Below are positions 1 to 54,410 of a stretch of 64,000 bases of DNA, in pieces. The position numbers were made by a program, and so were the translations under genes. The notes under the pieces are model-generated. The model did not search any database. It was not told the DNA's origin and saw only the letters and a list, made by a program, of their open reading frames with translations. Location: the NCBI GenBank assembly GCA_905250025.1, contig CAJNOJ010000071.1:62001-126000 (forward strand). The letters run 5' to 3'. Each line of letters opens with the position of its first letter. The first letter of the stretch is position 1. The DNA is from Adineta ricciae. Its lineage: Eukaryota; Rotifera; Eurotatoria; Adinetida; Adinetidae.

Positions 1-2354
1 AGTACGAATGACGTCAGCAATCGTCGTTCATTTTGCTCAGAGATAGAATTCGATTAGAAAGACTCATCATTATGCGTAAACAAATCTCATCGATGCACGA
101 GAGAAAGCCGAGAGAAGAAAAAAAATAGTTAATATCTAATCAAATACGCTAGGATGTTAGAAAGACTGTTCTTCTATAAACAAAACACATACGTCCTTGT
201 TTTAGACAGACGTTCGATATCGAACACCTTTTTTTCATCTCCGTCGATGTCGTTGCTTTTTTAATGATGTGCTTCATGTATTCATACGATTATTTCGCTT
301 ATCCGCGACAGTATCTTGGCTCGTAATGAGAAAGAAATACTATTATATACCTTCAAGCATGTAACTGAGCTGAATGAACATTGAGGGAGAAAAACGTAAA
401 TTGATTTTGATCATTTGCATGAAGCAGGTGAAAAATAGATTTTTAACTTGAAATAACTCGGATAGGGATTGTATGCAGGGTTTATGATTACTATCTTGAT
501 GACAAGAACGTAAGTCATGCGCACTTGTATACATGGAAAGATCAAAAATGCACTATATAAATCACGGACTCCAACGATGAATGAAGGTTATTAGAAAGAC
601 TAAACTACTCGATAACTGAATCTATTCGTTTTAGTACGATTGGATTAAGAAATTGGTTATACATGATCAGTAAGTGATACATCAAAGGTAATTCAGCTCT
701 CTGACTTTTCTTTTCTTTTTCAAGAATACTTTGTTAGGAGAAGGTAAAATTGATTGTTGTTTGAATAGTATGACTTTAATCTCTTCGGAATTAAACAATT
801 TTGAGATGCACGAATAATTCCTTTTGATCTCGTTTTTATTAATGAAAAGATCTAGGCATATATGTGCTCGATTGCTTTGTTCTAATCTCGGATGCATAGT
901 GTTTTTTTTCGTGCGTCTGTGTTTGATGTCGAAATATCACAAAAATAAACTCGATTATTTTTTAGTAAATAAGAACTTTTACGATTGTTGCTGTCATCAC
1001 GAATTGTAATAAAATTTTCGTTAATAGAAAACGGCATTCTTTCTCTCGAACAGATTCGACTATATAATCTAAGCCATATGATTGACTCGCTTCGATCAGA
1101 TGTCTATAGTTTTTTTCTGTGTGAAGTTGAAGCTACTTGACCTTGCGTGTTCTTTATCTTTCGACTGAAATTTTACAATATGTAAGCAGTGATCGCAAAT
1201 ACTTTCTTATTCCATTTGCTTTTCAAGGTCTTTCTTGGTAAGAAATTTGTACGATACCATTATTTTATAAGCTCAAGTAGTTTGCTTACTCATTCACTCT
1301 CTGCTTCTTTCTCATTTGACCGCCTACTACTTCCTCCATGACACGATATTTTCATGGTATATATCATGCTTTTCTCTTCTTCATTTTTGCTACACGTTAT
1401 TACTCAAAAGGGCAAAAAAGTTATTTCATAATAACAAGGGTTAAATGTCCATTTTCATGAGGAGATCAAAAGGAATTGCATGCCTTTTCTTTTCTGAACG
1501 GCAGAGTGACCTGTATGCTCGAATTCGAACGCACCGGCGAACACAAGCAGAAATTCGTTCCGTTTACTACAAGTTCTTTCTTTTTTCTCGTTGCTTCACT
1601 TCGATATACATGCGTGTATGTATATGCGTTGTTAGTCACGATCACGACAGCTGATTTGTTCGCTTTTCAAATAGCGAGGGAATAATAGATAGAGAGAACG
1701 AGAAAAGAAAGTGAAGGAGCACAACTTACTACTAGAAAAGTAAATGTAAACGAACGAATCAGAGAAGAAGAATTTTCTTTCACACGTATGCATTCAGCAT
1801 CATTGTATTTGAAGTTGTGTTCATCATTATCGCGCTTTTGTGATATGATGATGAAAGTTTCTCTCACTTTTTTTGCCCTGTGACATGTAAAAAATTGAAT
1901 ATACAATGATGATGTCGACACAATGACGATTGGCAAACTTCTTTTTTCATTTATCATCACTTATACGTTTACTCTTGTCTATTGTTCTATCTTTTCTAGG
2001 CTCGTTCTCCTTTTTTGCACATTGTCATTGAAATGCGTATTTTGATCTTATTCTAGAATGCAACAAAAACCGGCGACCAATCTAGTCAAGAAAAATCAAA
2101 ATACAGCAAAGAACGCTTCATCATCACTTACCTGTCATCTATAGTTTACATCATAGTTGCACTCAAAAACAAACTATGACTCAGAATAACTAATATTTCA
2201 ACATCACCATACATTATTCTATATGTCGTAGTCAATTATTTCTCTTTCTCCCTCTTTCTTACTCTTCTCTCTTTCGTTTCTCTTGTTGACAACGAGTTAT
2301 CCATCGAATAATTGTGCTTATACATAACTATTTTTGTCCAGTATTTCGTCAACT
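1..2354. other. Intergenic / 5' flank of the MAST gene, no gene seen
   Basis: AT-rich sequence with only short, low-complexity open frames on both strands. None shows a recognisable domain or a chain of splice-compatible exons. The last 150 bases are pyrimidine-rich (TTTCTCTTTC type) and lead into the MAST start, so they may hold the promoter, a 5' UTR or a trans-splice acceptor. Upstream non-coding exons of MAST cannot be excluded. Confidence 0.5.
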
Positions 2355-32680: not shown

Positions 32681-34251
32681 ATGGATTCTTCATACCGCCG
32701 AATGAAAGATAAATTATTATCAGACACGATACCAGTGAGCGATCAAGATTTACACGAACCAACGATTCGCAAAAGAACATTGACTCGTCCACGAGTACGT
32801 ATCAATCGACTCAAACAAATAAACATTCAGAGGATGTCGCAGCTAACTGTCATATATATTCAACACGAGATGATTCTTAACCATCTGTATTCGCGTTTGT
32901 TTTCTAGAGTGAACCATCACTTTGCGTTGATCCACAATCAAATACATACAGTCGAAGTCTATACCGTCTATCTTACAACGATCTTCGTGATCAAACCGAT
33001 GATCTAATCGATACAGTTTTCGAAGTTCCAACAAAATGTGTTGAGCAAGCGAAAGAAGTGGGTAAACTTGTTGTTCAATACGTCGTCGATCATAGTCATC
33101 TACCACATTGGTTGCTCGACAATGAATTTCTCATCTCAGGACATCGTCCACCAATGCCAAGTTTCAAACAATGCTTTGCATCGATCTTTCGTCTTCATAC
33201 GGAAACAGTAAACATCTGGACACATTTACTGGGAACTCTGTTTTTTATCATCATTGCTATTTACTTCACCACTCGCCCATCGACCGAAGTTCATACGGAA
33301 AAGAAATTAATTTTTGGCGCATTCTTCCTGGGTGCTATTATTTGTTTACTATGTTCGACATTATATCATACACTTTACTGCCATTCACCGAAGATTTCAA
33401 AGTTTTTCAGCAAGTAAGCGCTCAAGAAAATATTGCAGTCATTTGTGTATAATGACTTATTTGTATTTAGACTAGATTATTGTGGAATCGCGATCTTGAT
33501 CATAGGATCAATTGTTCCATTACTTTACTATCAGTTCTATTGTGAGTTCGGCACAAAAGTGGCGTATCTAACGTTGATTGGAATATTGGGAGCCGGATGT
33601 ATAGTTATATCAATGTGGGACAGATTCTCTTCGTCAGAATATCGAGTCTATAGAGCTTGTAAGTTGTTCGATAAAATAATAACTTTGTTGGTAGACGGAA
33701 ATATTGATCATCATTTATAGTGCTATTTATTACATTCGGTGTATTTGGTTTCATACCTACATGCCACTACATTATACGTTTTGGCATTAAACATGCTTTT
33801 ACAAGTATGAGTAATCGATATCACTATCATGATGTGTATAATAAATGTATCTAACTTTTTCAGCCGGCGCTACTCAATATTTATTATTAGTAGCTGCACT
33901 TTACGTGACTGGTGCTTGCATCTATGCTGGTAAATTTAAAATGAAACGATCGAGTATTTTACTGTTGAACATCTTTGTTTTTGTGTAGCACGAATTCCTG
34001 AACGATTAGCACCCGGTGCTTTCGATATCTGGGTAAGTTTATCAACATCATGGAAAGGTTGTTCTAGAATAATCTTTCTTTTGTTCGATTAGTTTCAAAG
34101 TCATCAATTATTCCACATTTTCGTTGTCGCTGCAGCCTGTGTTCACTATTATGGTATTTGCGTGCTATCGTATAATCAAACGAATTATTTTGGCGATTGT
34201 CGGAATATCCTAAGCCCAAATACAGCGCCTATGGCTGCAATGATGGCGTGA
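32681..34251 (+). CDS. Adiponectin-receptor-type PAQR protein, copy 1
   Basis: Seven-transmembrane PAQR protein of the AdipoR1/AdipoR2 group, in which a zinc site within the membrane supports a ceramidase-like activity. The cytoplasmic N-terminus is variable; the conserved part begins at WLLDNEFLISGHRPPMPSF and FRLHTETVNIWTHLLG. Zinc ligands are visible: His in STLYHTLYCHS and two His in SHQLFHIFVVAAACVHYYG. The LDYCGIA segment and AARIPERLAPGAFDIWF are also family hallmarks. Introns are short and lie at the same places as in copy 2 (after FFSK, after YRA and near ACIYA). The C-terminus is short and lacks the vertebrate tail. A tandem paralogue follows 394 nt downstream. Confidence 0.92.
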
Positions 34252-34645
34252 GAAATCGAACAATGATTCACTGTTTCAGTTTGACTTATTTTGCAGTTGA
34301 GAACTGGGTACATATTGTAGACTTCCTTTACCTACTTCCTGTCATATGTTCTTCGACTTCTTAGTCATTTTTCTTATACGCAAGTTTGTTTTCTACATTT
34401 TTAGTTTCCATAAAAGCAACCAATGTTGTAACGGTTCTTCTTAATGTATCGATAGAGCTATTTCGTGTTTAGACTTATATATTTGTGTTTCACTGTTCTA
34501 TATCAAAGAAATATTCTAATTTCTTTGTTGAAAATACATTCCACGTTTGTTTCTTCACACTTTTTGTTTCAATCGTGAATGATCATGAGTCATACCATCT
34601 GCTTCAGATATTCTTTTTAATATACTGCTTTATCGAAAACTATTC
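34252..34645. other. Intergenic between tandem PAQR genes
   Basis: 394 nt of AT-rich 3' UTR and promoter sequence with no gene and no obvious repeat. Confidence 0.5.
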
Positions 34646-36102
34646 ATGACGGACGAAATGGAAAGTAGCAAACCTGATTCTACTGAAGCAGATGTTCGAC
34701 GACGAGTACTTGCTCGTACACTCGTACGTATAGAATCGATGGAATCTCACATATCAAAATAATTCTTTATTTGTTTAGAGTGAACCAAATAATGATGGAG
34801 ATAATCAATCAACGTATGCACGCAGTAAATCTTATCCATCCAAACCGGAATCCAATGATGACAACAATGAATTGATGGACGCGGTCTTTGAAATGCCAAC
34901 CAAATGTGCTGAACAAGCGAAAGAAGTGGGTAAACTTGTTGTTCAATACGTCGTCGATCATAGTCATCTTCCACATTGGTTGCTCGACAATGAATTTCTC
35001 ATCTCAGGACATCGTCCACCAATGCCAAGTTTCAAACAATGCTTTGCATCAATCTTTCGTCTTCATACGGAAACAGTGAACATCTGGACACATTTACTGG
35101 GAACTCTGTTTTTCATCATCATTGCCATTTACTTTATTACACGTCCATCATCTGAGGTTCATATTGAAAAGAAAATTACGTTCGGAGTATTTTTCCTCGG
35201 CGCTATTCTTTGTTTATTGTTCTCAACTTTATACCATACAGTCTATTGTCATTCACCAAAAGTTTCGAAACTCTTCAATAAGTAAGATGCCTTTTTATTA
35301 TAAGTACTCGTATTTATATGTACGATTGATAGGCTCGATTATTGCGGAATATCAATTTTGATCATTGCATCATTTATTCCATGGATCTATTATGGTTTTT
35401 ATTGTGAATTTGGAACAAAGATAGCATATTTGCTGATTACGATAACATTGGGCACCGGCTGTATAATTGTTTCCATGTGGGACAAATTTTCTGCACCGGA
35501 ATATCGAACATGTCGAGCACGTACGTTTCTCTTCGATTTTCGATAGAGAACAAACTATTCCTTGCGCTTCTCTCATTTTATTTTCTAGTTCTATTCATTG
35601 CTTTTGGCCTATTTGGTTTTGTTCCAACTTGCCACTATGTGTTACTTTTTGGATTTAAGCATGCGTTTACAAGTATGCGACGAATTTCAACTGATCTTCG
35701 TAAAAGTTTCGAATTTTTTTAGCTGGTGCAGCTCAATGGCTAGTCGTCATGGCAGTTTTATACATTACAGGTGCTTCTCTCTATGCAGGTAGCTACTATC
35801 CGTATATTTCCAGTCATTTGTATCCTTTTTTTTTAAATTAGCACGTATACCTGAACGATTGGCTCCTGGTTACTTTGATATCTGGGTAGGAATAGTTGAG
35901 TTACTTTCGTAGAGTTAATTCCACAAGATGTCGTTTGTTATAGTTTCAAAGTCACCAGATCTTTCATGTTTTCGTTGTTGCTGCAGCCTGTGTTCATTAC
36001 TATGGTATCTGTGTACTTTCGAAGCATCAATCGGACATAGGAGATTGTCGCAAAGGTGTTCTTCCATCGATTCACAATGCGTTCAATTCTGTATATCAGT
36101 AA
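34646..36102 (+). CDS. Adiponectin-receptor-type PAQR protein, copy 2
   Basis: Tandem paralogue of the preceding gene. The stretch coded at about 34910-35100 is nearly identical in nucleotides to copy 1 (EVGKLVVQYVVDHSHLPHW through TVNIWTHLLGTLFFIIIAIY), while flanking exons and introns differ more. This suggests a local conversion tract or strong constraint. The PAQR zinc histidines are kept (STLYHTVYCHS and SHQIFHVFVVAAACVHYYG), as are LDYCGIS and ARIPERLAPGYFDIW. The N-terminal tail differs entirely (MTDEMESSKPDSTEADVRRR). The C-terminus ends NAFNSVYQ after GDCRKG. Confidence 0.92.
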
Positions 36103-36814: not shown

Positions 36815-39800
36815 ATGACTTCAGCACAACAACCAAAAGGTAGGGGACGCGGTCGTGGAACGGCATGCGCCACCGTTGCCCCACCAGTCCCTGCAATTAC
36901 TTCTGTTACCGATGAATTACCAATTTCTTCTACTCCAGAGAACACTGCACCATCTCCTTCATCCCTGGCAGATGACACAATTTCAGCGACTTCTCAAAAA
37001 AGCACCACCGACACAACAAAAAGCACAGATACTGGGTTTGCTTCTACTTCAAGTAATGTGAATCAACCAACAACAACTTCGTCGACTGTACCACGTGGTC
37101 GAGGACGCGGAGGAGATCCAAAACGAATCGATCCACCACCGGACCCCTTTTGGACTGTTACCGATCTCACTCAACGACAATTCAGCACCAACGACCGACC
37201 GATCAAACCCGATCAACTCGGCACTCTCGGACAACAAATCGACGTGGCTACCAACTACTTTCCCGTCCTCCACTTTCCACAAAAAGGTCTCGTCTACAAA
37301 TATCACATTCTCATTCGAAACAGGAAAAATCTCGATATTCACAGAGATCGACGACGGTAAACATTCTGCACGCTCTCCTTCGCTCCCATCACAACACTTC
37401 TTCATGTTCTAGCATCTTCTATCACTCTTGGCTTCTGGCATTCTGTCGACAGAATCCACAAGTGAACAAGAACAAGATCGTCTTCGACAACCAGTCAACG
37501 ATATTCAGCTTCGATGAGCCACTTCCTGGCATCACAGAAAATGTAACATGTCCCATTCTCAATGTACCCTCTCTCACTTCTTCACTTCTAGACCCCTGCA
37601 CAAATCATCGACGGTCCCAATCGCTCAAATCGACAAGAACCACACAAAGTCATCGTGCAACGAGTGGGAACGCCAGTTGATCTTGCACTGATCCGAAATC
37701 TGGACGAGCTCTTCGACCCATCATCACTCACGAATGAGAGAATCGAAGATTTGCAAGAGGTGAAGCAGGTGCTGTCAGTGGCACTACACGAGCACTGCTC
37801 ATCACAAGCATCATTTGTGTTCACTCGTTCGTTCTTCACTCCGAGCACTGACGGACGTGGTTGTGAATGGGATCTCGGGCTGGGCAAAGCAGCGTGGCGT
37901 GGATTCTACTCGTGTCTGGTATTTTCCAAGGGCAAACATCAGTTATTGATGAATCTAGATGGTAAGTGTGTAGATGATGGATGAAGGTGGTGATACTAGA
38001 TGGTTATGATGATTGTAGTGAAACATTCTGTTTTCATGAAGAAGCAGTCGTTTTTGGATTTTGTGTGTGAAGTGATGGTGCAAAGTCCCAGCGGAAAAGC
38101 CAAATATAGTAGACAGAGAGATGTGCGAATGGCCGATAGTCGTGATGTTTTGCAATGGCTTGATGTAAGAAACCGAAACTATCGAAATGATGCTGAGTTT
38201 TTGTTGAAGCATTGTAAACGTAAGTACTTTGATACATTAGCAATGAAAAGAACGTTTTGATGAATATTTTGGACCAGATCTTCGAGTGCGCTCGCAGGCT
38301 GCAGACAAGCCAATCAGTTATGAGATAGTGAAACTTGGACGCCCTGCATCAGAGGAAAAATTTCATTGGAAGCAAGAAAAATGTGACGTGACAATTGAAG
38401 AATATCACAAAAAACAATACAATGTCGAATTGAAGTGAGTACAGAAATAAGTGTATTTTCTATGTTTGAACACTTGATAACTTTTCAGGTATCCATCATT
38501 ACCGACGTTAGAGATGCGTAATGGGTCGTTTCTCCCAATGGAACTGGTCGATGTCGAGCCTGTGAGAGTGAAGAAAGTGACTGACGAACAGAGAGCCACG
38601 ATGTGTAGTGTGTCAACGATGAAACCGCTGGAATATGAGAGAACAATCAAGCAGATACGTGCCGATCCAAAGAAGCAGCGTTTCGAAGCTGATCCATTTG
38701 TGGCTGCATGGCAGATGAATATAGACGTAAAAATGGTGACAGTGCCAGCTCGCGTTTTGCCGGTGCCAGAAGTAGTTTATCGGGATGACCATCGAGTAAC
38801 TTCGAGGGATGTTAGAGATGTAGGAACTTGGGAGGCTAGGGGAGCTCGCTTTCACACACCATCAGCATTTCCACGTGTATGGGCAATGATCAATCTGTCG
38901 AGGATTCATAGAGATGATTGTGAACAGTTCTACATTCAATTGAGTGGAGCTGCACGACGACATGGGATGCAATGTAGCGAACCTGAACTATACGAAGAGT
39001 TTGTAGCTACCACGGATCGTTCATATTCGATTGAGAAGGTGGTAGATAATATTAAAGAAAAGATGAACAAGAATCAGGACTGCAAGTTTTTCATCGTGAT
39101 CCTACCGTCAAAAAGTTTGTCGAAACAAAACAAAGAAGCTTATAGAGATCTGAAAAAACTGGTAAATACCTGCAAAACTAATTAAATAATTCGAGTTACA
39201 CTGATTTGTTTTAGTGCGAGCTGGACACGGGTGTCGGGATCGTCACTCAAATGATTGAGGAAAAAAATGCTCTCAAAGGATCAAGGAAACGTCCTGACGA
39301 TTGGGACCTTGCGAAGTTGAGCAATATACTGCTGAAAATCAATACAAAACTAGATGGTACCAATAGTATACTTCGAGTCCCGTAAGTTACATTATATCTA
39401 TTTCGATGATGCAAGCGTGTGCGAAGTCTTGACAGAAGAATCGAGAAAAACTGATGCAAATAGGAATAAAGCCAGCTTTCAAGATAGAAGCGATTACAGA
39501 TCTTTAAATATGGATCCTCGAACAACTACCTGCCCTTGTCTTTTTGTTCATAACCACCAATAAATAAAAAACATACTACCCGTATTCGCTTTTTACCGAG
39601 TCAATCTACGCAAAACCAAACTCATCAATCGGTTAACTTTCGAGAAAACGTTTGAATACTATTCATTCTCAGTCACATAAACATTTTCACTATTATGAAA
39701 CTTCGTTATATCTGATCAAATAGTTCTACACTTGTTTATTCCTTCTATTTCAGGCCAGTCATCGAGCGATTCTTCACCCAGGGTCATCGTATTATGTATG

Positions 39801-40731
39801 TCGGTGCTGATCTTAGCCATCCTGCTCCCGGTGCCACCACGCAGCCTTCAGTAGTTGCCGTCGTCGCATCTGCTGATGACATACCCAACCGATACTTCAA
39901 AGAAGTCTACCAACAGTTTCGACCACCTCAAACACGAGGCGAAAGTCGAGAACATATCGTCAGTCTCAAGCAGATCATGAAGTCACTCATCTCACAATAT
40001 GCAAAACATCGAGGATTTCCACCCAATGCCATCGTCTTCTATCGTGATGGCATCTCAGAGGGCGAATTCGATTCTGTCTTCGATAAAGAGCTCACGAGCA
40101 TACGAGAAGCTTGCGTCGAGCTGTCACCTGTCTATCGTCCGTACCTGACATACATTGTTGTCAGCAAACGACATCACACAAAACTCTTTCCAGCAAAATC
40201 AGACAAGAACGTACCAGCAGGCACTGTTGTCGATTCGCCTGACATCACCAATCCAACCAAATACGACTTCTATTTGTGTAGTCATCACGGTGCACTCGTG
40301 AGTCAACAGTTGATCAGATGAGATGATACGCGATGTTTGTTGTAGGGAACAAGTCGACCGACACACTATTATGTCTTGTACGACGATAACAAGTTGAAAC
40401 CGGACGAAGTGCAGATGCTAACCTATGCTTTGTGTTATACATTTGCTCGATGTACTCGTTCGGTGTCGATTCCTGCACCAGTGAAGTATGCTGACTTGTT
40501 AGCTATTCGTGCGACACTGTATATCAAGAGTGATGATCAGTCCGATACGTAAGCTTGTGACAGTTAGATGATGGTCGAATGAACTGAGTGTTGATTTTGT
40601 ATTGTAGTGACTCGGTGTCATCTGAGACTCGCTTACCGGTGAATCAAAGTACCAATGTGGAAGGTGGTGTGAGAAGCGAACGTATCGTTCTGAGCTCTAA
40701 AATCGCTCCTGAGTGCCCATTCTTTTTATAA
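36815..40731 (+). CDS. AGO: Argonaute (AGO clade), copy A, complete
   Basis: Small-RNA-guided nuclease. Exons read by eye are 36815-37356, 37413-37563, 37592-37961, 38019-38219, 38278-38434, 38489-39161, 39215-39381, 39754-40297, 40346-40548 and 40608-40731. They sum to 3132 nt (1043 residues) in frame. Order: a disordered Ser/Thr tail with GRGRGRG and RGRGRGG repeats; the N domain ([20 protein letters not shown]); linker 1 ([20 protein letters not shown]); PAZ (about residues 355-475); linker 2; MID (about 600-753; KINTKL lysines and TQM glutamine kept); PIWI (754 onward). PIWI catalytic residues are D of GADLSHP, E of ESREHIVS, D of [10 protein letters not shown], and an Asp in KYADLLAI where human AGO2 has His. 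This gives a D-E-D-D set that should still cut. HYYVLYDDN and [11 protein letters not shown] are AGO-type. It shares near-identical blocks with copy C. Confidence 0.92.
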
Positions 40732-41245
40732 ATTTTGACATATTTCTTCATCTTCCAAAGATTATATTTTTATTTAGCCATTGGTTTTCTTTTAATGCTT
40801 TACTTTTTATGGTTACGTTTGAATGATAAAATAATAGAAATGACGACCTCCAGGAAAACCGGTCTTTTGTTTCCAATAAAATTATTTTTGTGCTCTTAAA
40901 AAAAGCACTTAGGTGTCGCTTTGCGCAGTTTTAGGCAGATGCTGCATTTTCGTTTATAGTTGATAATTAGAAGTCCACAGATTCTATTAGAATATCTCAT
41001 TACTTCAGATTATCATGAAATCAACATAAAGCGAAACTTAATGTTCTTAAAAACACGCCTTTTACTTCAAGCACGACGTCTCTCTTCATTGACGGTAGTT
41101 ACGTTTCATATTTATTACTCATTAAATTGGACACGTAACTGGAGTTGTTCCCTTTGTGGGAAATTACGCAATCCTGCACTATAAAACGCTTGCAAACTAG
41201 GCTCGTTTCAAACGATTTCTGCCTGTTGACTTTCCATTCCAGATC
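40732..41245. promoter_or_regulatory. Duplicated spacer: 3' flank of Argonaute A and promoter of copy B
   Basis: 514 nt that align along their length with the 41954-42468 spacer. Shared blocks include TTGATAATTAGAAGT, the stretch around AACTTAATGTTCTTAA, and the last 20 bases before the ATG. A TATAAAA box at 41180-41186 lies 66 nt before the ATG at 41246. TTCCAG ends three bases before that ATG. Confidence 0.7.
41180..41186 (+). promoter_or_regulatory. TATA box of Argonaute copy B
   Basis: TATAAAA, 66 nt upstream of the ATG. The same box at the same distance precedes copy C, within otherwise diverged spacer sequence. Confidence 0.6.
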
Positions 41246-41953
41246 ATGCTGCAATCAATACGCGGACGAGGACGAGGACGTATGTGTCCTACTCGAGATC
41301 CCTCAATCTTAGACGGCTCGACGTGCACCCGTTCCGGTAGCTCAACAGCAACATCCCTTATTACGCTTCATGGCACGAATGAATCGGATTCCGGTATTTC
41401 CACAGCTTCAGGTAATGAGTCGCCAGCATCAATATTTCGAGCTACTCTCTCGCGTGGCCGAGGACGCGGAGGAGATCCAAAACGAATTAATCCACCACCG
41501 GACCCCCTCTGGACTGTTACCGATCTCACTCAACGACAATTCAGCACCAACGATCGACCGATCAAACCCGATCAACTCGGCACTCTCGGACAACAAATCG
41601 ACATGGCTACCAACTACTTTCCCGTCCTCCACTTTCCACAAAAAGGTCTCGTCTACAAATATCACATTCTCATTCGAAACAGGAAAAATCTCGATATTCA
41701 CAGAGATCGACGACGGTAAACATTCTGCACGCTCTCCTTCACTCCCATCACAACACTTCTTCATGTTCTAGCATCTTCTATCACTCTTGGCTTCTGGCAT
41801 TCTGTCGACAGAATCCACAAGTGANGTAGTGAATCGGTATCATCTGAGGCTCGTTTACCGGTGAATCAAAGTACAAATGTGGAAGGTGGCTTGAGAAGCG
41901 AACGTATCGTCCTGAGTTCTAGGATCGCTCCTGAGTGCCCTTTCTTCTTATAG
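41246..41953 (+). pseudogene. AGO: Argonaute copy B, assembled only as first and last exons around an 'n'
   Basis: Exon 1 (41246 to about 41715) encodes [12 protein letters not shown]..., an RG-rich start and the N domain, nearly identical to copy C. After the 54-nt intron, exon 2 breaks at the single 'n' at 41825. The sequence then resumes at a splice acceptor and the last exon (SVSSEARLPVNQ..., stop at 41951-41953), followed by a 3' flank like that of copy A. Compared with A, the missing part corresponds to about 3.1 kb (37466-40603). Both remaining exon frames are open and carry copy-specific silent and replacement differences, so B may be a whole gene collapsed by assembly rather than a true deletion. 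As given it cannot encode an Argonaute. Confidence 0.8.
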
Positions 41954-42468
41954 ATTTCGTTATATTTTCTTCATCTCCCAAAGATTTTATTTTTATTTAG
42001 TGATCGGTTTTCTTTTAATTCTTTATTTGTTATGGGCACCTTGAAATGATAAAATAATATAGAGGATAACTGCCAAGAAAAACGGTCTTTTGATTGTAAT
42101 AAAATTATCTTTGTACTCTCAAAAAAGTGCTTAGGTGTTCTTTTGTGCAGTTATAGAAATATTGTACATTTTCATCTATAGTTGATAATTAGAAGTTCGC
42201 AGATGCTATTAGAATATTTCATTACTTCAGATGATCATAAAATCTTGATAAAACGAAACTTAATGTTCTTAAGAAAACAACTTTTATTTCAAGTGCAATG
42301 CCTCTACTCATGAACGACGGATGACGTTTCATCTGTATTACTCATTACACTGTACACGTAACGAAATATATTCCCTTTGTGGAAAATTACCCAATTCTTC
42401 GTTATAAAATGCTTTCAAACTAGACTTGTTTCAATCGATTTCTGGTAGTTGACTCTCCATTCCAGATC
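41954..42468. promoter_or_regulatory. Duplicated spacer: 3' flank of copy B and promoter of copy C
   Basis: 515 nt homologous to 40732-41245, with many substitutions but conserved ends. It shows that the tandem unit is gene plus spacer. It contains the TATA box of copy C. Confidence 0.7.
42403..42409 (+). promoter_or_regulatory. TATA box of Argonaute copy C
   Basis: TATAAAA, 66 nt before the ATG at 42469, in the same position as in copy B. Confidence 0.6.
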
Positions 42469-45400
42469 ATGTTGCAATCAATACGGGGACGAGGACGAGG
42501 ACGTACGTGCCCCACTCGAGATTCCTCAATCTTAGACGGCTCGACGTGCACCAGTTCCGGCAGTTCAACAGCAACATCCCTTATTACGCTTCATTGCACG
42601 AATGAATCGGATTCCGGTATCTCCACAGCTTCAAGTACTAATTCGCCAGCATCAATATTTCGAGGTCCTCTCTCGCGTGGTCGAGGACGCGGAGGAGATC
42701 CAAAACGAAACAACCCACCACCGGACCCCTTCTGGACTGTTACCGATCTCACTCAACAACAATTCGGTACCAATGATCGACCGACCAAACCCGATCAACT
42801 CGGCACTCTCGGACAACAAATCGACGTTGCTACCAACTACTTCCCCGTCCTCCACTTTCCACAACAAGGTCTCATCTACAAATATCACATTCTCATTCGA
42901 AACAAGAAAAATCTCGATATTCACAGAGATCGACGACGGTAAACATACTTCGCGTTCTCCTTCACTCCCATCACACCCTTCTTCATGTTCTAGCATCTTC
43001 TATCACTCTTGGCTTCTGGCATTCTGTCGACAGCATCCACAGGTGAACAAGAACAAGATCGTCTTCGACAACCAGTCAACGATATTCAGCTTCGATCAGC
43101 CACTTCCTGACATCACAGAAAATGTAACATGTCNCAACGAGTGGGAATACCAGTTGATCTTGCACTGATCCGAAATCTGAACGAGCTCTTCGATCCATCA
43201 TCACTCACGAATGAGAGAATCGAAGATTTGCAAGAGGTGAAGCAGGTGCTGTCAGTGGCACTACACGAGCACTGCTCATCACAAGCATCATTTGTGTTCA
43301 CTCGTTCGTTCTTCACTCCGAGCACTGACGGACATGGTTGTGAATGGGATCTCGGGCTGGGCAAAGCAGCGTGGCGTGGATTCTACTCGTGTCTGGTATT
43401 TTCCAAGGGCAAACATCAGTTACTGATGAATCTAGATGGTAAGTGTGTAGATGATGAATGAAGGTGGTGATACTAAATGATTATGATGATTGTAGTGAAA
43501 CATTCTGTTTTCACGAAGAAGCAGTCGTTTTTGGATTTTGTGTGTGAAGTGATGGTGCAAAGTCCCAGCGGAAAAGCCAAACATAGTAGACAGAGAGATG
43601 TGCGAATGGCAGATGGTGGTGATGTTTTGCAATGGCTTGATGTAAGAAACCGAAGCTATCGAAATGATGCTGAGTTTTTGTTGAAGCATTGTAAACGTAA
43701 GTGACTTGTGATGTTGTGAATGAATGAACTCATTGAATTCCGATGGATCTTTCCAAATAGATCTCCGTGTTCAGTCGCACAATACTAATAAACCACATGA
43801 TTACGAAATATTGGACTTCGGACTGCCTGCATATGTGCAAAAGTTTCACTGGAAATCAAAGAGGATTGAAGTGACAATTGAAGAATACTATAAAGAAGAG
43901 TATGAGATCGTACTGAAGTAAGCATCTGTCGAGGAATGAGTATATTGTTCATTTTCAATCAACACTAGGTATCCATCATTACCGACGTTAGAAATGCGTA
44001 ATGGGTCGTTTCTCCCGATGGAAATGGTCGATGTCGAGCCTGTGAGAGTGAAGAAAGTGACTGACGAACAGAGAGCCACGATGTGTCGTGTGTCAACGAT
44101 GAAACCGCTGGAATATGAGAGAGCAATCAAGCAGATACGTGCCGACCCAAAGAAGCAGCGTTTCGAAGGTGATCCATTTGTGGCTGCATGGCAGATGAAT
44201 ATAGACGTAAAAATGGTGACAGTGCCAGCTCGTGTTTTGCCGATGCCAGAAGTAGTTTATAGTGACATATATCGAGTGAGATCAGATACCACGAGAAAGA
44301 TGGGCGATTGGGATGTGAGAGGTACGACATTTTACAAGCCAGCTGACTTCCCACAATTGTGGGCAATGATTAATTTAGCTGAAATCAACGAAGAGACATG
44401 CAAAGACTTCTATAATGATCTGAGGGTAGTCTCACAGGATCGAGGAATCGATTGTAAACCCCCTGAGATCTATGTTGAGGAGCCAATTAGTAGGTTTTCG
44501 ACCGCGAAAATAATTACTGTATTAAGTGATATAATAGCAAAGCATGACGATTGCAAATTTTTTCTTATTATTCTGCCTGATGACAAAACGCGGAACACCG
44601 TTGTTTATAATTCTACCAAGAAGCATGTAAGACCAGTTTTAACGATCCTCTGTACAGATATAATTTAGCCTGCATTTTAGTGCGAGCTAGAACGGGGATT
44701 TGGAGTAGTAACGCAAATGCTCCGTGCTGTAACGGTCGTCGGTCGTCATGTGCGGAACCCGGGCAAGATCGACTATTCTAAATTCAATAACATCTTACTG
44801 AAAATAAATACGAAACTGAATGGAATAAACCATGTCCTTGAAGTTCCGTGAGTATATACTATTTACATTTAAAACCTTAACTCATCATTGATTATATGTA
44901 TATATCTGAACTACGCTTTAGGCCAATCGTCGAGCGATTCTTCACCCGTGGCCATCGTATTATGTATGTCGGTGCTGATCTTAGCCATCCTGCCCCCGGT
45001 GCCACCACGCAGCCTTCTGTGGTTGCCGTCGTCGCATCTGCTGATGACATACCCAACCGATACTTCAAAGAAGTCTACCAACAGTTTCGACCACCTCAAA
45101 CACGAGGCGAAAGTCGAGAACATATCGTCAGTCTCAAGCAGATCATGAAGTCACTCATCTCACAATATGCAAAACATCGAGGATTTCCACCCAACGCCAT
45201 CGTCTTCTATCGTGATGGCATCTCAGAGGGTGAATTCGATTCTGTCTTCGATAAAGAGCTCACGAGCATACGAGAAGCTTGCGTCGAGCTGTCACCTGTC
45301 TATCGTCCGTACCTGACGTACATTGTTGTCAGCAAACGACATCACACAAAACTCTTTCCAGCAAAATCAGACAAGAACGTACCAGCAGGCACTGTTGTCG

Positions 45401-45899
45401 ATTCGCCTGATATCACCAATCCAACCAAATACGACTTCTATCTATGTAGTCATCACGGTGCACTCGTAAGTCAACAGTTGATCAGATGGGATGATACGCG
45501 ATGTTTGTTGTAGGGAACAAGTCGACCGACACACTATTATGTGTTGTACGACGATAACAAGTTGAAACCGGACGAAGTGCAGATGCTAACCTATGCTTTG
45601 TGTTATACATTTGCTCGATGTACTCGTTCGGTGTCGATTCCTGCACCAGTGAAGTATGCTGACTTGTTAGCTATTCGTGCGACACTGTATATCAAGAGTG
45701 ATGATCAGTCCGATACGTAAGCTTGTGACAGTTAGATGATGGTCGAATGAACTGAGTGTTGATTTTGTATTGTAGTGACTCGGTGTCATCTGAGACTCGC
45801 TTACCGGTGAATCAAAGTACCAATGTGGAAGGTGGTGTGAGAAGCGAACGTATCGTTCTGAGCTCTAAAATCGCTCCTGATTGCCCTTTCTTCCTGTAG
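42469..45899 (+). CDS. AGO: Argonaute (AGO clade), copy C, with a one-base gap symbol
   Basis: Same exon plan as copy A. Exon 1 ([12 protein letters not shown]...) belongs to the B/C type, unlike A. An 'n' at 43134 joins sequence equivalent to A positions 37552 and 37658, so about 105 nt (end of exon 2, intron 2, start of exon 3) are missing in the assembly and the frame cannot be read across it. Linker 1, early PAZ, linker 2 and the whole PIWI region are almost identical to A, with the same D-E-D-D residues. The PAZ exon 43761-43917 and the stretch 44261-44847 (end of linker 2 and MID) are clearly different. The specificity-loop region reads [19 protein letters not shown] against [20 protein letters not shown] in A. 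MID anchors (Y, K, the Q in VTQML, and the KINTKL lysines) are kept. The stop is at 45897-45899. It is probably functional. Confidence 0.88.
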
Positions 45900-48813: not shown

Positions 48814-49410
48814 TATGTATAGGAAAGCAAAAAAATGCTAATTTAACCATGAATGTTCACTTTTTTAAATTGATTCAAAATAAAGTATATTTCAATCTTT
48901 TTCTAGAAAACGGCCTATTTATTTCAGGATTAGACGCCATATGATGGCATCAAGAACACCGTATACTGGTGGAATTCTTTTTTCATGTCGAGAAATGGAG
49001 AATGCGCTTTTCATGACTTTGATAACAGTATTGCTTTCGTCCTAAATTAATGAGGCGCCGTATGTAACATTGTCACAATCGAAATCTCCAGGAGTATCTC
49101 TAGAGTCAAAGGGTGAGTGAACCGTGAAAAGAACAGAATGTCAATACTTCTAATGGAACCATTATCATCATCGCCGCTGAATGTCTACTCAAAAGGTGAT
49201 GATCATGAGACGAATGGATTAGAAATAACAATTTTAGACATGCTGTCAGAAGAAGTTGAAGTTCACACCCGTCAGCATTCGTGCAAAAAAGAGATTATTC
49301 TTTGAAATTACTCTAATTATTACATCAGGCGAATTCTTATTTACGACCTAATATTCTGCTTTCATTTTCTTTTTTCTTCTTAGTAACTGAGGACGATATC
49401 AGAATTTAAA
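48814..49410. other. Intergenic
   Basis: 597 nt of 3' UTR and promoter sequence; one short frame at 49117-49305 is not supported by any similarity. Confidence 0.45.
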
Positions 49411-50488
49411 ATGTCACCGACAATAGCTGAATCAATTATTTTCGTATCTCAAAAATACACAATTGTCGTATATATTATCATTTTCCTCACTGGAATTGTA
49501 GGCAATATCTGTAATATAATTGTTTTTCGTACGCTAAAAGTATTTCGACTTAATCAATGGGCCTTCTATCTTGTTGTTGCAGCTATCGTAGATTTATTTT
49601 TACTATTAATTGTTCTACCATTGCGTATAGCTGATTATGGATATGGTTATGATGCGATGCGCTACTCGCTTGCCTGGTGTAAGATCCGACAAACCATCGT
49701 TCCGATATTTTCACTTCTGTCGTTTTCAGCAATATGCCTCGCATCAGTTGACCAATATCTATCAACTCATTATATTCCTTCGTTGAGACAAATGAGTTCG
49801 TTGAGATCGGCTCATCGGCTGGTTTCTATTGCCATCTGTCTTTGGACGTTACATGGGATTCCGTTTCTAATATTTTTCGAGATAAAACAACCAGCTGGCT
49901 GTGCAGTGTATAATCGAGGGTTTCTTATTTACTATTCATACGTTCAGTTTTGTACACTCAGCGGAATACTGCCAATCACAATCTCAGCAATTTCGGCGTC
50001 ACTTGCGTATTTAAATGTTCGTCGCATTGTGCGACGTCAAATCCCAATCATTCGACGGCGATTAGATCGTCAACTCACAGCGATGGTTTTAACAAAAGTG
50101 ATGTTTTTAGTGGTTACTACTTTACCATTCGTTGTCAATCGTATTGTTTTCATGAATATATACATTGATCCTAACGATTCGTTACGAGTAGCTATTGAAC
50201 AATTAATCTCAACTGTTACTTCATCTTTATTCTACATAAATTCAGCGGTAAGTGTTTGTTCTTTATTTTGAAAATCTCTTTATTTATATTGTTATTTACT
50301 TATAGGGCACGTTCTACGTTTTCCTATTTGTGTCCAAACGTTTTCGGCAACAATTCAGATATGTGTGGAAAAAAGCGATCGGAAAACCGATGCTTCGTAT
50401 GATGAACTGTTCTCGACTACTTCATACAGAGAACCAAGTAATACCTGAACAGTTCGGCTCTCATATAGCAGACGATGAGCTAAGCTAA
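49411..50488 (+). CDS. Rhodopsin-like GPCR, tandem copy 1
   Basis: Seven hydrophobic helices in about 340 residues, in two exons (49411-50247 and 50306-50488) split inside TM7. Class A landmarks are present. TM1 has GIVGNICNIIVF with N1.50. TM2 has IVDLF with D2.50. A conserved Cys occurs in SLAWCKIRQ before TM3 and in PAGCAVYN in the second extracellular loop. The DRY box is altered to DQY in ASVDQYLSTHY. TM6 has LPF but no CWxP. The TM7 NPxxY is NSAGTFYVF. A basic stretch (RRQIPIIRRRLDRQLTAMV) follows TM5 at the G-protein side. Ligand unknown; the loop lengths suggest a peptide-type receptor. It is closest to the next two genes. Confidence 0.85.
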
Positions 50489-51782
50489 AAGCCAAGTTTT
50501 AAACACATATATTCTTGTTCAGTAAATAACCTTTTCAATAAAAGCAAGAATACTATAGCACGTATTCAACTTTTGAGATCCTGTTGTGCTTGAAAGCGTA
50601 TTGATTGAAACACACGTATTGTCTCGAGATGACCTAACAATAGTATCAGAAGATCTGCACATAAAAAGACTAAAATTACCCCACTGGAAATGATGGTATT
50701 CACGTACGAAGAATAATCGTTGTTGGTGACCTATACCCTCTCTGTATTGGTAGTAACATCATCCAAACTGTTCACCTACGCATAGTTTTCGTTTCTTCAA
50801 AACCTTTCAACTTTGCTCATGAGAATCCGAAACCGTTTTGAAGATTCTATCTATTTCCAGCAAAGATTAACGACTGTCGTTCAGTAGAATATTCTGGAGT
50901 TCTATTTATGTCATCTAAACCTTCTTAACGACTCTTATATATAATAATTCTAATGAGATTTGTAATTATAAAGTCACCTATACTTAACAGAATGTTATAT
51001 TTCGAGGCTGTAATTTAGAATGAACAAATTCTAATGATTTACATGTCAATGTCACGATACATTGCACCGAATGCTTTGGCAGGTATCAGTAATGGAATAT
51101 GACAAACGCACTTGGACTTTTTATGGCTAATTTCAACTATCATTAGTGCTGAAAGCGTACGTAATCCGCGTGATAATTTTTTGAAAGATGTTTAAAAAAT
51201 TTCATTTTGTTGCTCCACAAAGAGTTTCGACGCCAATGAATGAAAATCATGCAGCATCATCATCGGTACGACACCGCTCAAAGCAGAATAGCATCAGCCA
51301 GAACTAACTCATAGATAATACAGAATGATAAATTTAGTTTTTAATAAAATTTCTTTACACATTCAACTTGACCTGTAAGACTCAAAAACTTGCTTTGAAC
51401 TCTATATAATGCTTTAGACTTGCATAAATGTCTTTAACAAAAAACATTTAATCACTAATTCTGTCTATCACAGTTAACTCTTCATTCTGAATTACCGACA
51501 TCAAGTTGAGACTCGTGGAGAATGAACCATTTGATTTTCTTTCCTCATTTTCTAATGAATATGATATAAATGAGTTGCTTCCTAATTAAACCGTTTTTAT
51601 AGAAATAACAGACTATTAGGAAACGTCTAGAGGTATTACCTAAATGCTATTTTCTAGTTAATAATTGACTTCATAAAAACTAAACGAGAGACACGGGCAA
51701 TTTGAATAGATATCCACATTTTGAATTTATTATTCTACCTTTAAAGATTTTATTTTAATTGGCTCTAAAATATTCGTTTAGA
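50489..51782. other. Intergenic between GPCR copies 1 and 2
   Basis: 1.3 kb, AT-rich, with stop codons in all frames and no residual GPCR exon recognised. Confidence 0.45.
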
Positions 51783-52825
51783 ATGTCATCAACAGACATC
51801 GCGACATCGATTTTGTTTGTTTCAAAACAATTGGCTATCTACGGATATCTTCTTATTTTAATTGCTGGTGTAATTGGAAATATTATGAACATACTTGTTT
51901 TTTCATGTTATAAATTATTTCGACGCAATCACTGTGCTTTTTATCTTCTTGCCCAAACGATCATCGATTGTTGTTTATTAGTTATTGCTTTATCGTTTCG
52001 TATTCTGGAATTAGCATTTACAATTGATTACACTCGAACTTCAGTTGTCTGGTGTAAACTAAGACCAATGATTGCTCACACGTTAACACTTCTGACATTT
52101 TCAGCGATCTGTTTTGCAGCGATTGATCAGTATTTATCAACCAATTATCATGCTTGGTTACGACAAATGAGCACGTTCAGATTGTCTCGTGGTCTCGTGT
52201 ATATCAGTATTATTGTCTGGATTCTTTATGATTCGATATTCTTATTCTTTTTCGAACTCCATCCAGACACAGGCTGTAATATATACAATGCAGATTTCTC
52301 GAAATATTACTCATTTTTTCATTATATCATATTGAATGGATTTATACCTATTCTGATATCGACAACTTTTAGTGTATTGGCTTATCTCAATGTTCGTCGG
52401 ATTGTTCAAATGCGGATGCAAGTAGTTCGAAGAAAACTGGACAAGCAGTTGACAGCTATGGTTTTAGCCAAAGTCGCATCTCTTGTCTCTACAGTTCTCC
52501 CATCAATCGTCTTTCGAATTTATGTACTAAACGTTACAGTGAATTCCACCGACACCGTTCGCATAGCTATTCATCAATTGGTATCAAATATTGCATATGC
52601 TTTATTTTATATCAATCCTGCTGTAAGTCATTGTATGATGTATCGCTTTATGAACATTATACATTTTAGTGTACGTTCTATCTATTCATATTGGTATCGT
52701 CGAGATTCCGTCGACAAATTCGATATACATTTGCGTTTTTGAAGGGTTATGGACGCCGATGTTGTCGACTTCCAGTGACGAATCAAATCGTGCCAGCTAA
52801 CGATGAAAGAAGTGAATTCGAATGA
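51783..52825 (+). CDS. Rhodopsin-like GPCR, tandem copy 2
   Basis: Paralogue of copy 1 with the same architecture and the same TM7 intron (52623-52669, exon 2 from 52670). The uninterrupted frame through the intron stops at 52742, but splicing gives the conserved CTFYLFILVSSRFRRQIRY and ends SEFE at 52823-52825. TM1 is GVIGNIMNILVF, TM2 keeps Asp in IIDCC, the extracellular cysteines are in SVVWCKLRP and DTGCNIYN, and the DRY position reads AAIDQYLSTNY. TM7 is INPACTFYLF, the most canonical NP of the three. The ATG at 51783 is used; the upstream frame begins with TTG. Confidence 0.85.
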
Positions 52826-53363
52826 GCTTGCGCATTGTTTTTGTCGGACATACGTAAAAAAATAACAATTACATGGGAAGTTCAGAGGAAGTGCTCCTTT
52901 TTAGTGAACTGTACACAGAATATAATCAAGACGCTCATGCGACCTACTATTCTCTTCTATAACGAACTGTGAGTGTAATAAGAATATTCAAGCCAAAGTT
53001 CAAAGTGGATACTTATAGTTACCATTCAGCGTAAGACGCTGAACCTTCTTCATAAACCCAAATAAAGTTCATTCAGTTCAAACACTTCACATCACACACT
53101 GATTTGTGAGATTTCTTGCACATCAGTACATATTTATACGATGCATGTTTGTTATATTCTTCAAGGACAACTTCATAATGAGTATAAGCATCAAAATGAC
53201 TTCTCTCTAAAAACATACCTGCATAAATTAAAAATTCGATATGTGATACTCAGTGCAAAAATATCTTCATTCACCACGGTGACGATAATGATATATTAGC
53301 TTTCTGCGTAGAAATTTTCTATGAATATTTATAAAACAGTAGAGCTAGTGAACATTCAACGTG
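52826..53363. other. Intergenic between GPCR copies 2 and 3
   Basis: 538 nt, AT-rich, no gene recognised. Confidence 0.45.
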
Positions 53364-54410
53364 ATGACAGAGGACGAGATATACGGTGTTTCTCGATATC
53401 TGACCAATTTATTTAGTTTTATCATATTATTCGGCGGGTTGATTGGTCATGTTATCGATATACTCGTTTTCACAAGTTCGAGACGATTTCGTAATAGACC
53501 GTCCGCTTTCTTTTTAACTATTGAATCCATCGTTAATTCAGTACAATTGATCATTTCATTTAGTTCTCGTATCGCAATCAGTGGTTTTGATGATGATCTT
53601 ACACAAACATCCATCGTCTGGTGCAAATTACGCTCTGCTATTGCAACAAGTTGTACACTTATCTCGTTTACTATTGCTTGTTTTGCAGCTATAAATCAGT
53701 ATTTAGCCACTAGTTATCAATCATATTTGAAAACTTTGAGTACACTTAACCTTGCGCATTACCTTACAGGTATGGCGACTATCATTTGGAGTCTACATGG
53801 CATCCTGTTTTTGATCTTTATGGATAATAAATCAACAGTAAAATGCGTGATAATAAGTGATGGATTTCTTGTTTATATTACGTATGTATATTATTTAATA
53901 TGGACGGGATTTTTGCCAATTATAATCATGTCGGTGTTCGCAGTCTTAGCTTCTTTTAATATTCGCGCTATTGTACGAAGTCATATACCGATCTTTCGTC
54001 GACGAATTGACCAGCAGCTAACTTCGATGATCATTGCTCGTGTTGCATTTTCGGTGATTATTACATTACCTTATGTTCTTTTTCGTGTGTATTCACTTCA
54101 AAGTCATATGTGGAGAAAAGGTTCAGTCTCTCCAGCCATCGCAGATCTGATTGGAACGATTGCTTTCGCATTATTTTATTTAAATTTTTCTGTATGTAGC
54201 ATCACTGTACTTTGACATTGGTTTATAACTTGTTTTTTCTTTCTTTGTTCATAGGGCTCGTTTTATTTATTTCTAATGTCTTCAACACGATTTCGTCGAC
54301 AAGTGCGATACGTTCTGGTAAAGAAATACTGGCGAATGCTGTGTAACAAGACAGCACATGTAAATCGCATATCCCCAATCTCACATATATCGAGTGTGGA
54401 ACTAGACTAG
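53364..54410 (+). CDS. Rhodopsin-like GPCR, tandem copy 3, motif-degenerate
   Basis: Two exons (53364-54191 and 54255-54410) with the same intron position as copies 1 and 2. Seven helices and both extracellular cysteines (SIVWCKLRS and TVKCVIIS) are kept. Several class A key residues are replaced: TM1 reads GLIGHVIDILVF (N1.50 lost), TM2 reads SIVNSVQ (Asn for D2.50), the DRY box is AAINQYLATSY, and TM7 reads NFSGSFYLF. The loop RSHIPIFRRRIDQQLTSMI is conserved. The open, undisturbed frame argues against a pseudogene. It may be a non-signalling or constitutively tuned receptor. It ends SSVELD at 54410. Confidence 0.82.

Follow-up and report, generated by a model that had tools for sequence, protein, structure and literature searches.

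What keeps two neighbouring Argonaute genes nearly identical over some of their domains, introns included, and widely diverged over others? The question is raised by a tandem pair, here called A and C, in the bdelloid rotifer Adineta ricciae (GenBank assembly GCA_905250025.1, contig CAJNOJ010000071.1, positions 62,001 to 126,000). This whole stretch of 64,000 nucleotides (nt) is referred to as the window (G000:C71:62001-126000; GC content 35-40% in four 16-kb steps), and bare coordinates are positions in it; C14, C95, C7, C19, C77 and C10 denote further contigs of the 130.46 Mb assembly that was searched. The evidence strongly supports interlocus gene conversion inside each haplotype, sparing PAZ and MID. 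The two genes and their parts are laid out as follows.

36815-40731, plus strand: Argonaute gene A; 10 exons, 1036 amino acids (aa), intact and N-free; GT-AG model without stops
37128-38219, plus strand: A, homogenised tract 1 (exon 1b to exon 4: N domain, L1 and first half of PAZ)
38220-38488, plus strand: A, divergent island 1 (intron 4, PAZ exon 5, intron 5); 61 of 64 informative sites group alleles
38489-38774, plus strand: A, homogenised tract 2 (L2, first 286 nt of exon 6); 13 of 13 sites by haplotype
38775-39753, plus strand: A, divergent island 2 (MID: rest of exon 6, intron 6, exon 7, intron 7); 233 of 234 sites group alleles
39754-40731, plus strand: A, homogenised tract 3 (PIWI, exons 8-10 with introns)
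43135-45899, plus strand: Argonaute gene C, exon 3 to stop; open reading frame (ORF) intact; Pfam
43697-43968, plus strand: C, divergent island 1 (intron 4, PAZ exon 43761-43917, intron 5)
44255-44921, plus strand: C, divergent island 2 (MID: rest of exon 6, intron 6, exon 7, intron 7)
44922-45899, plus strand: C, homogenised tract 3 (PIWI, exons 8-10); 97.95% identical to A over 977 bp

Exon models of A, C and their counterparts on C14 (A' and C', see below) were built by hand with GT-AG introns, and frames are open in all four over the assembled parts. A spliced aligner fed with A's own protein returned identical A exons, which serves as a consistency check only. PAZ exon 5 occupies 38278-38434 in A and 43761-43917 in C (157 nt in both), exon 7 of C spans 44681-44847, and the PIWI exons begin at 39754 and 44922, so that the coordinates given in a preliminary description of this DNA were right to about one base. 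PAZ, MID and PIWI of both genes sit in N-free sequence. Pfam models for PAZ, ArgoL1 and Piwi score above cut-off in both proteins, and three more fall slightly under it, with scores in A of 29.5 against 30.9 bits for ArgoN, 31.6 against 33.3 for ArgoL2 and 25.9 against 27.5 for ArgoMid; the scanned C protein started at exon 3, and the ArgoN match is therefore in A only. The domain order, N-L1-PAZ-L2-MID-PIWI, is that of the AGO clade. The top PDB matches of MID-PIWI from A are human AGO1-4 (E-values 5e-81 to 9e-78), with PIWI proteins at 2e-28 or weaker, and the stretch from exon 3 to MID of C likewise has AGO1-4 as its top matches. Judged by domain order and these matches, A and C are AGO-clade Argonautes, closer to AGO1-4 than to PIWI proteins.

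The preliminary description had claimed that the two copies form a mosaic, and that claim holds: nucleotide identity is 96-98% over three tracts, introns included, as against 53-67% in two islands, the PAZ exon and MID, each with its introns. A sliding comparison of A and C with introns, which that description had proposed, alternates sharply and is not uniform. Tract 1 stands at 98.0% in exon 3, 94.7% in intron 3 and 97.0% in exon 4, followed by island 1 at 56.9% in intron 4, 65.0% in the PAZ exon and 57.8% in intron 5. Exon 6 is 96.9% identical up to A 38774 and 52.7% beyond, and the rest of island 2 continues at 66.7% (intron 6), 54.5% (exon 7) and 56.8% (intron 7). Identity resumes in tract 3, with 97.4% in exon 8, 95.8% in intron 8, 99.5% in exon 9, 100% in intron 9 and 95.2% in exon 10. 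Identical amino acids between A and C number 160/168 in L1, 28/53 in the PAZ exon, 87/91 in L2, 77/184 in MID and 285/289 in PIWI. The breaks on A fall in 38178-38226, at 38486, and at about 38781 and 39751, and three of the four inner edges lie no more than about 12 nt from a splice junction. Introns 1, 3, 8 and 9 are homogenised between A and C at 89-100%. Because homogenisation reaches introns 3, 8 and 9 but leaves introns 4-7 diverged, its cause lies at the level of DNA rather than in purifying selection on the protein.

A second copy of the locus lies on the minus strand of C14, which is collinear with window positions 27538-54825 at 91-93% outside the array (24 kb compared). On each contig, matches to the family of RNA-dependent RNA polymerases (RdRP) occur at a distance of about 66 kb from the Argonautes, to the corresponding side (G000:C71:30962-32839 and G000:C14:310141-312055, each by its own family match), and two other Argonaute loci also occur as pairs, 93.5-94% identical over 5.3-5.9 kb. 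On the strength of this collinearity, the placement of the RdRP matches and the pairing of other Argonaute loci, C71 and C14 look as expected of homologous chromosomes, and we treat them as haplotypes. On C14 lie A', which runs to the start of PIWI and there meets a single N, and C', which is present from exon 3 on. It repeats the mosaic with edges equal to within a few bases: island 1 mismatches span 38226-38486 in both haplotypes, and across the two, island 2 starts at 38780-38781 and ends at 39746-39751.

This replication allows each informative site to be assigned. The closest pairs are A-C and A'-C' in the tracts, and A-A' and C-C' in the islands. The counts were made on the 1793 of 3991 alignment columns that are free of gaps and Ns in A, A', C and C', a set that leaves out exons 1-2, most of exon 3 and PIWI past A 40007. 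Sites that split the four copies two against two number 41 in the tracts (39 by haplotype, one by allele, one other) and 298 in the islands (294 by allele, three by haplotype, one other). Block by block, the haplotype and allele counts are 20 and 0 in exons 3-4 (plus one other), 13 and 0 in L2 and 6 and 1 at the start of PIWI, as against 2 and 61 in PAZ (plus one other) and 1 and 233 in MID. The 337 two-class sites fall into 13 runs; 100,000 shuffles gave a mean of 74.5 and a minimum of 56. The approximately unbiased (AU) test supports (A,C)(A',C') in the tracts, with p-AU 3.6e-12 for both alternatives and a log-likelihood difference of 102 for the allele tree, and (A,A')(C,C') in the islands, with p-AU at most 1.7e-4 for both alternatives and a difference of 570 for the paralogue tree.

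Distances agree with this picture. Differences between paralogues and between alleles are 40/986 (A-C, as laid out) and 79/1085 (A-A') in tract 1, 9/286 (A-C) and 24/286 (A-A') in tract 2, and 23/978 (A-C) and 60/978 (C-C') in tract 3. Synonymous divergence (dS) between A and C is 0.032 in L1, 0.070 in L2 and 0.080 in PIWI, and that between A' and C' is 0-0.07 in the tracts; allelic dS is 0.12-0.33 in the tracts, 0.12-0.43 in the islands and 0.11 in the N domain (A-A' only). Within the islands the A-C value rises to 2.7 in the PAZ exon (A-A' 0.37) and is saturated in MID, where amino acid identity is 42% for A-C and 85% for A-A'. Since the A-C and A'-C' distances in the tracts are well below the allelic ones, conversion was active in both haplotypes after their split. 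The preliminary description had suggested gene conversion for PIWI; this is strongly supported and extends to N/L1 and L2, paralogues on one haplotype being closer than alleles, introns included. The ratio of nonsynonymous to synonymous divergence (dN/dS) between alleles, which that description had proposed computing block by block, is below 1 in all blocks computed, at 0.06-0.30 outside MID and 0.56 (A) and 0.26 (C) within it. All blocks thus look constrained, MID least, and the A MID (38775-39381) has the highest allelic value of the blocks computed.

One further stretch of the PIWI exon, 39869-40007 (about 139 nt), has no informative difference and is 100% the same in A, A', C and C', in contrast to the 6.1% difference between C and C' over the whole tract. 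This identity possibly marks a conserved element, or haplotypes that have recently exchanged sequence.

How old the pair is can be judged from a second tandem pair, X1/X2, on C95 (L013, L049, L050), with exon order as in A as far as modelled; the models were made by spliced alignment of A as the query and are incomplete, X1 being without its start and X2 without its last exon. Next to the C95 pair, ORFs on one flank match the PI3-kinase gene of the window (27.7-31.6 kb) and those on the opposite flank match genes at 47.7-54.2 kb in the window; judged by these 12 kb of flanking-gene matches, C95 probably represents the locus homoeologous to this one through the ancient tetraploidy of bdelloids. 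Amino acid identity between X1 and X2 is 49% in L1, 41% in PAZ, 38% in L2, 42% in MID and 62% in PIWI. The A-C value in MID is the same 42%, as against 95-99% in L1, L2 and PIWI; the PAZ exon has 53% against 41%. Because the MID distances are equal, the islands are not unusually fast but show the true age of the pair, the remainder having been overwritten, and X1/X2 is, on these comparisons, an unhomogenised natural control for A/C. Positive selection was considered as the source of island divergence and is not needed, given that the C95 pair equals the MID distance and allelic dN/dS is below 1. Orthology of A with X1 and of C with X2, as position would have it, is not borne out by MID, which gives 35-41% in all eight cross comparisons. 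The C95 Argonautes have diverged further than parts of the adjoining PI3-kinase gene.

The shared PIWI had been called a nearly identical slicer in the preliminary description, a label that has to be corrected. Aligned with human AGO2, both genes keep D597 and D669 and carry S at E637 and D at H807; the numbers D669 and H807 are those we take the AGO2 tetrad to have. The tetrad reads D-S-D-D in A, C, C' and X1, and D-S-D-N in X2, while A' reads D-S before its N; ordinary AGO genes on C7 (L015) and C19 (L016) read D-E-D-H in the same alignment. A/C thus have neither DEDH nor DEDD, the slicer tetrads. The glutamate finger, in a source that also gives the numbering of E637 and D597, is described as critical for cleavage in humans and dispensable for assembly of the RNA-induced silencing complex (excerpt of PMC10772731). 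With that residue absent, slicing is doubtful, and the PIWI common to A and C more probably serves for binding than for cleavage.

Some of the evidence on C14, and on the 5' end of C, hinges on the layout of the array around two single Ns, the only Ns in the window:

41246-41824, plus strand: apparent 5' end of a further copy (exon 1, part of exon 2), likeliest the true 5' end of C
41825, no strand: single N, read as a scaffold join
41826-43133, plus strand: piece of the C14 haplotype, probably misplaced (A' 3' end, intergenic sequence, C' 5' end)
43134, no strand: single N inside gene C, read as a scaffold join

As laid out, the N at 43134 removes about 100 nt of C (parts of intron 2 and exon 3), and the exons 1-2 that position would give to C, 42469-43123, probably belong to the C14 haplotype. 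Over the shared exons 1-2, all 15 informative sites pair 41246-41824 with A, and A' with 42320-43133 (exons 1-2 part 42469-43133); over promoter and tail, 134 of 135 sites pair A with A', and 41246-41824 with 42320-43133. The exon-10 piece at 41826-41946 is identical to C' at 121 of 121 positions and is followed by a 3' untranslated region (3'UTR) that is A-type by eye. The whole of 41826-43133 is 87.2% identical to 40604-41824, near the allelic level of the array flanks (86.8-90.4%), and for 41947-42675 no match was found within the 24 kb of C14 compared. A third gene copy was considered and rejected as most likely an assembly artefact, the quartet sites and the 3'UTR placing 41826-43133 on the C14 haplotype. 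From these pairings the true 5' end of C is most likely at 41246. Gene models that use 41826-43133 as part of the C71 Argonaute locus would be wrong; the misplacement leaves the PAZ-MID-PIWI mosaic untouched.

Why conversion should have spared PAZ and MID is a separate matter. The comparisons show an old tandem pair in which conversion within each chromosome copy keeps rewriting the N/L1, L2 and PIWI parts, while the PAZ exon and MID, both with their introns, as well as the N-terminal tail, promoter and 3'UTR, escape it and retain deep, old differences common to both haplotypes. The reading we favour, and hold to be probable rather than secure, is that conversions reaching PAZ or MID are selected against owing to different guides. 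Conversions overwriting PAZ or MID would be lost because the two proteins would anchor different guide RNAs at their 5' and 3' ends; A and C would also be expressed from different promoters, and the shared remainder would be a common chassis that probably binds and represses targets without slicing, to go by its D-S-D-D tetrad. The modules affected are consistent with different guide specificities of A and C. The MID loop before the tyrosine is longer than that of ordinary AGO by six residues in A and four in C, with differing letters; A and A' have it in identical form, C and C' in differing forms. Any difference in specificity would stem from this loop and the surrounding residues.

Several observations weigh against this reading. 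The MID residues that hold the 5' phosphate, which we take to be AGO2 Y529, K533, Q545, K566 and K570, are kept as Y, K, Q, K and K in both A and C. The aromatics of the PAZ 3'-end pocket, presumably F292, Y309 and Y314 of human AGO1, are also kept, in A by alignment to AGO1, as are the tyrosines of C, and the phenylalanine of C by alignment to A only. Both proteins can thus plausibly hold guides at both ends, and since the guide-contact residues are kept in both, the residues themselves give no evident sign of altered specificity. A and C have also diverged in promoter, N-terminal tail and 3'UTR, so divergence is not unique to the guide-binding parts. The replication of tract 3 on C14, where A' lacks most of PIWI, is carried by 254 columns and its contrast is modest (A-A' 96.5%, A'-C' 99.6%, one site contrary); it gains exon 10 only if the reassignment of 41826-43133 is right. 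Finally, the island edges coincide with the end of alignable sequence, near-equally in both haplotypes.

This last point is what would be expected under the main rival to selection on guide binding, in which the same conversion runs without selection: PAZ and MID would simply be too diverged to recombine, conversion would stop where homology ends, and the islands would have no special function. The introns in the islands are diverged as much as the exons, three of the four inner edges are close to splice junctions, and X1/X2, though unhomogenised, has an equal MID distance, all of which suit such a limit. It fits poorly with island 1, however, which is only about 260 bp long and lies between tracts of 96-97%, where conversion anchored on both sides should overwrite it; the shortness of this PAZ island between near-identical tracts argues against the rival, as do the passage of tract 1 through introns 1-3 and the open frames of the islands, with allelic dN/dS below 1. 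We regard a pure homology limit as rather unlikely, but as a serious alternative.

Selective protection also has to be weighed against two further explanations. The preliminary description had allowed for cassette-like shuffling, which would here take the form of a recent duplication into which a third Argonaute then supplied PAZ, MID, promoter and tail. Sharp edges, near exon junctions in three of four inner cases, would suit such an import, and in the exon-7 part of MID (about 57 aa) the C95 copies reach 45-56% identity, against 47-49% for A-C, with scores that are lower or similar. A search of the whole assembly with each MID, however, found nothing that scores above the other copy and the alleles; below these come the C95 pair (32-56% per exon) and, further down, C7, C19 and C77 (32-35%). 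With no donor MID outscoring the other copy in this assembly, and a MID distance equal to that of X1-X2, this part of the description was not sustained. Import would further have to account for at least four separate segments, trees join the MID of A most closely with that of C, albeit weakly (60-81%), and homogenisation within haplotypes postdates the haplotype split. The whole-assembly MID searches thus lead us to reject cassette import for this genome as a whole, and its occurrence here is improbable. Still less probable, indeed barely credible, is an assembly chimera of two genes or haplotypes. Single Ns do occur inside the array on both C71 and C14, the piece between the Ns (41826-43133) does look misplaced, and faulty scaffold joins at Ns may lie behind some breaks of collinearity in bdelloid assemblies (Nowell et al. 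2018, passages in PMC5916493), a warning on N joins that counts for a chimera. Against this, A is wholly N-free, as are C and C' over PAZ-MID-PIWI and A' as far as PIWI; two contigs have the same mosaic with the same edges; and the A-C differences in the tracts are dispersed substitutions, so that no simple collapse can be involved. A chimeric source of the mosaic was rejected on the N-free A and the repetition on two contigs.

Compared with systems described elsewhere, the closest known pattern is the divergence peak in exon 5 of the human red/green (long- and middle-wavelength, LW/MW) opsins, for which theory and examples of selection holding a divergence peak under conversion have been reviewed (PMC3924837, in the part available). 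Like A and C, the opsins are adjoining duplicates homogenised introns included, with the divergence peak in the part that sets specificity, and paralogues are closer outside the peak and orthologues closer inside it; correspondingly, the paralogues here are closer than alleles in the tracts and the reverse holds in the islands. Unlike A/C, the opsin peak, as presented in that part, surrounds two substitutions of known effect in one exon with homogenised flanking introns, while in A/C two whole modules and their introns are diverged to or near saturation. The duplicates GOT1p1 and GOT1p2 of Tigriopus californicus likewise form a mosaic of high and low divergence under ongoing conversion, but, as introduced in PMC3728101, they encode a metabolic enzyme rather than Argonaute guide-anchoring modules. 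For neighbouring Argonaute-family paralogues, interlocus conversion has been proposed for Aedes Piwi2 and Piwi1/3, a case that rests on gene-tree clustering and, in the passages concerned, makes no mention of protected PAZ/MID islands (PMC6907866). From the relevant excerpts, conversion between aphid ago-1 copies was sought and not found (PMC3536612), and that between Argonaute-family duplicates was not ruled out in Diptera (PMC4824172). Expansions of Argonautes (clades BDAGO I/II) and RdRPs have been described in bdelloids (PMC7943196, in excerpt), and A/C, likened by description as extra Argonautes in an RdRP-rich genome, probably belong to this expansion; the excerpt of that account does not treat conversion, domain mosaics or the catalytic tetrad. 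As to WAGO-like Argonautes, whose guides are RdRP products, the sole lead here is the RdRP family itself, which is strongly expanded, with 95 exon-level matches in the genome. We found no precedent for conversion-protected PAZ/MID islands in Argonautes among the open-access papers that the searches listed, judged by titles, abstract openings and passages; within that scope the A/C pattern would be new for Argonautes, conversion with divergence peaks being already known.

Other duplicates of the window and the assembly show a range of behaviour. C10 (L009) carries a second tandem pair of the Argonaute family, one copy of which begins at a single N; its members are 89-100% identical in 100-bp steps over a 2.7 kb match, without islands. 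The ordinary AGO genes comprise L015, L016 and L017 (C7, C19 and C77), with C19 and C77 at 94% over 5.9 kb and C7 at about 78-91% to both. At about 33000-36000 in the window lie two tandem genes, the second matching a Haemolysin-III related (PAQR-type) domain; these duplicates are about 79-80% identical between paralogues (across both contigs) and alleles of the 12-kb stretch about 93%, with no homogenisation seen. Three tandem receptor-like ORFs occupy 49387-54215, one of the three with a significant 7tm_1 match, and also match an ORF on the C95 flank.

Should selection be what maintains the islands, the sequence would mark the second half of PAZ and MID as the parts that set the pathway, as opposed to interchangeable N, L1, L2 and PIWI; with allelic replication on two haplotypes and an unconverted pair on a probable homoeologous contig, the locus would then be an unusually clean natural experiment. 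It also documents ectopic conversion that has recurred inside haplotypes of a bdelloid, in a group for which it is a standing question how duplicated and allelic copies are homogenised, and, through the D-S-D-D tetrad, it draws attention to Argonautes of bdelloids whose silencing probably does without slicing. Taken furthest, and offered as a tentative possibility, A and C may form a modular Argonaute system, in which one uniform non-slicing chassis with two sets of PAZ and MID kept by selection would connect two small-RNA classes to one type of effector in a putatively asexual animal.

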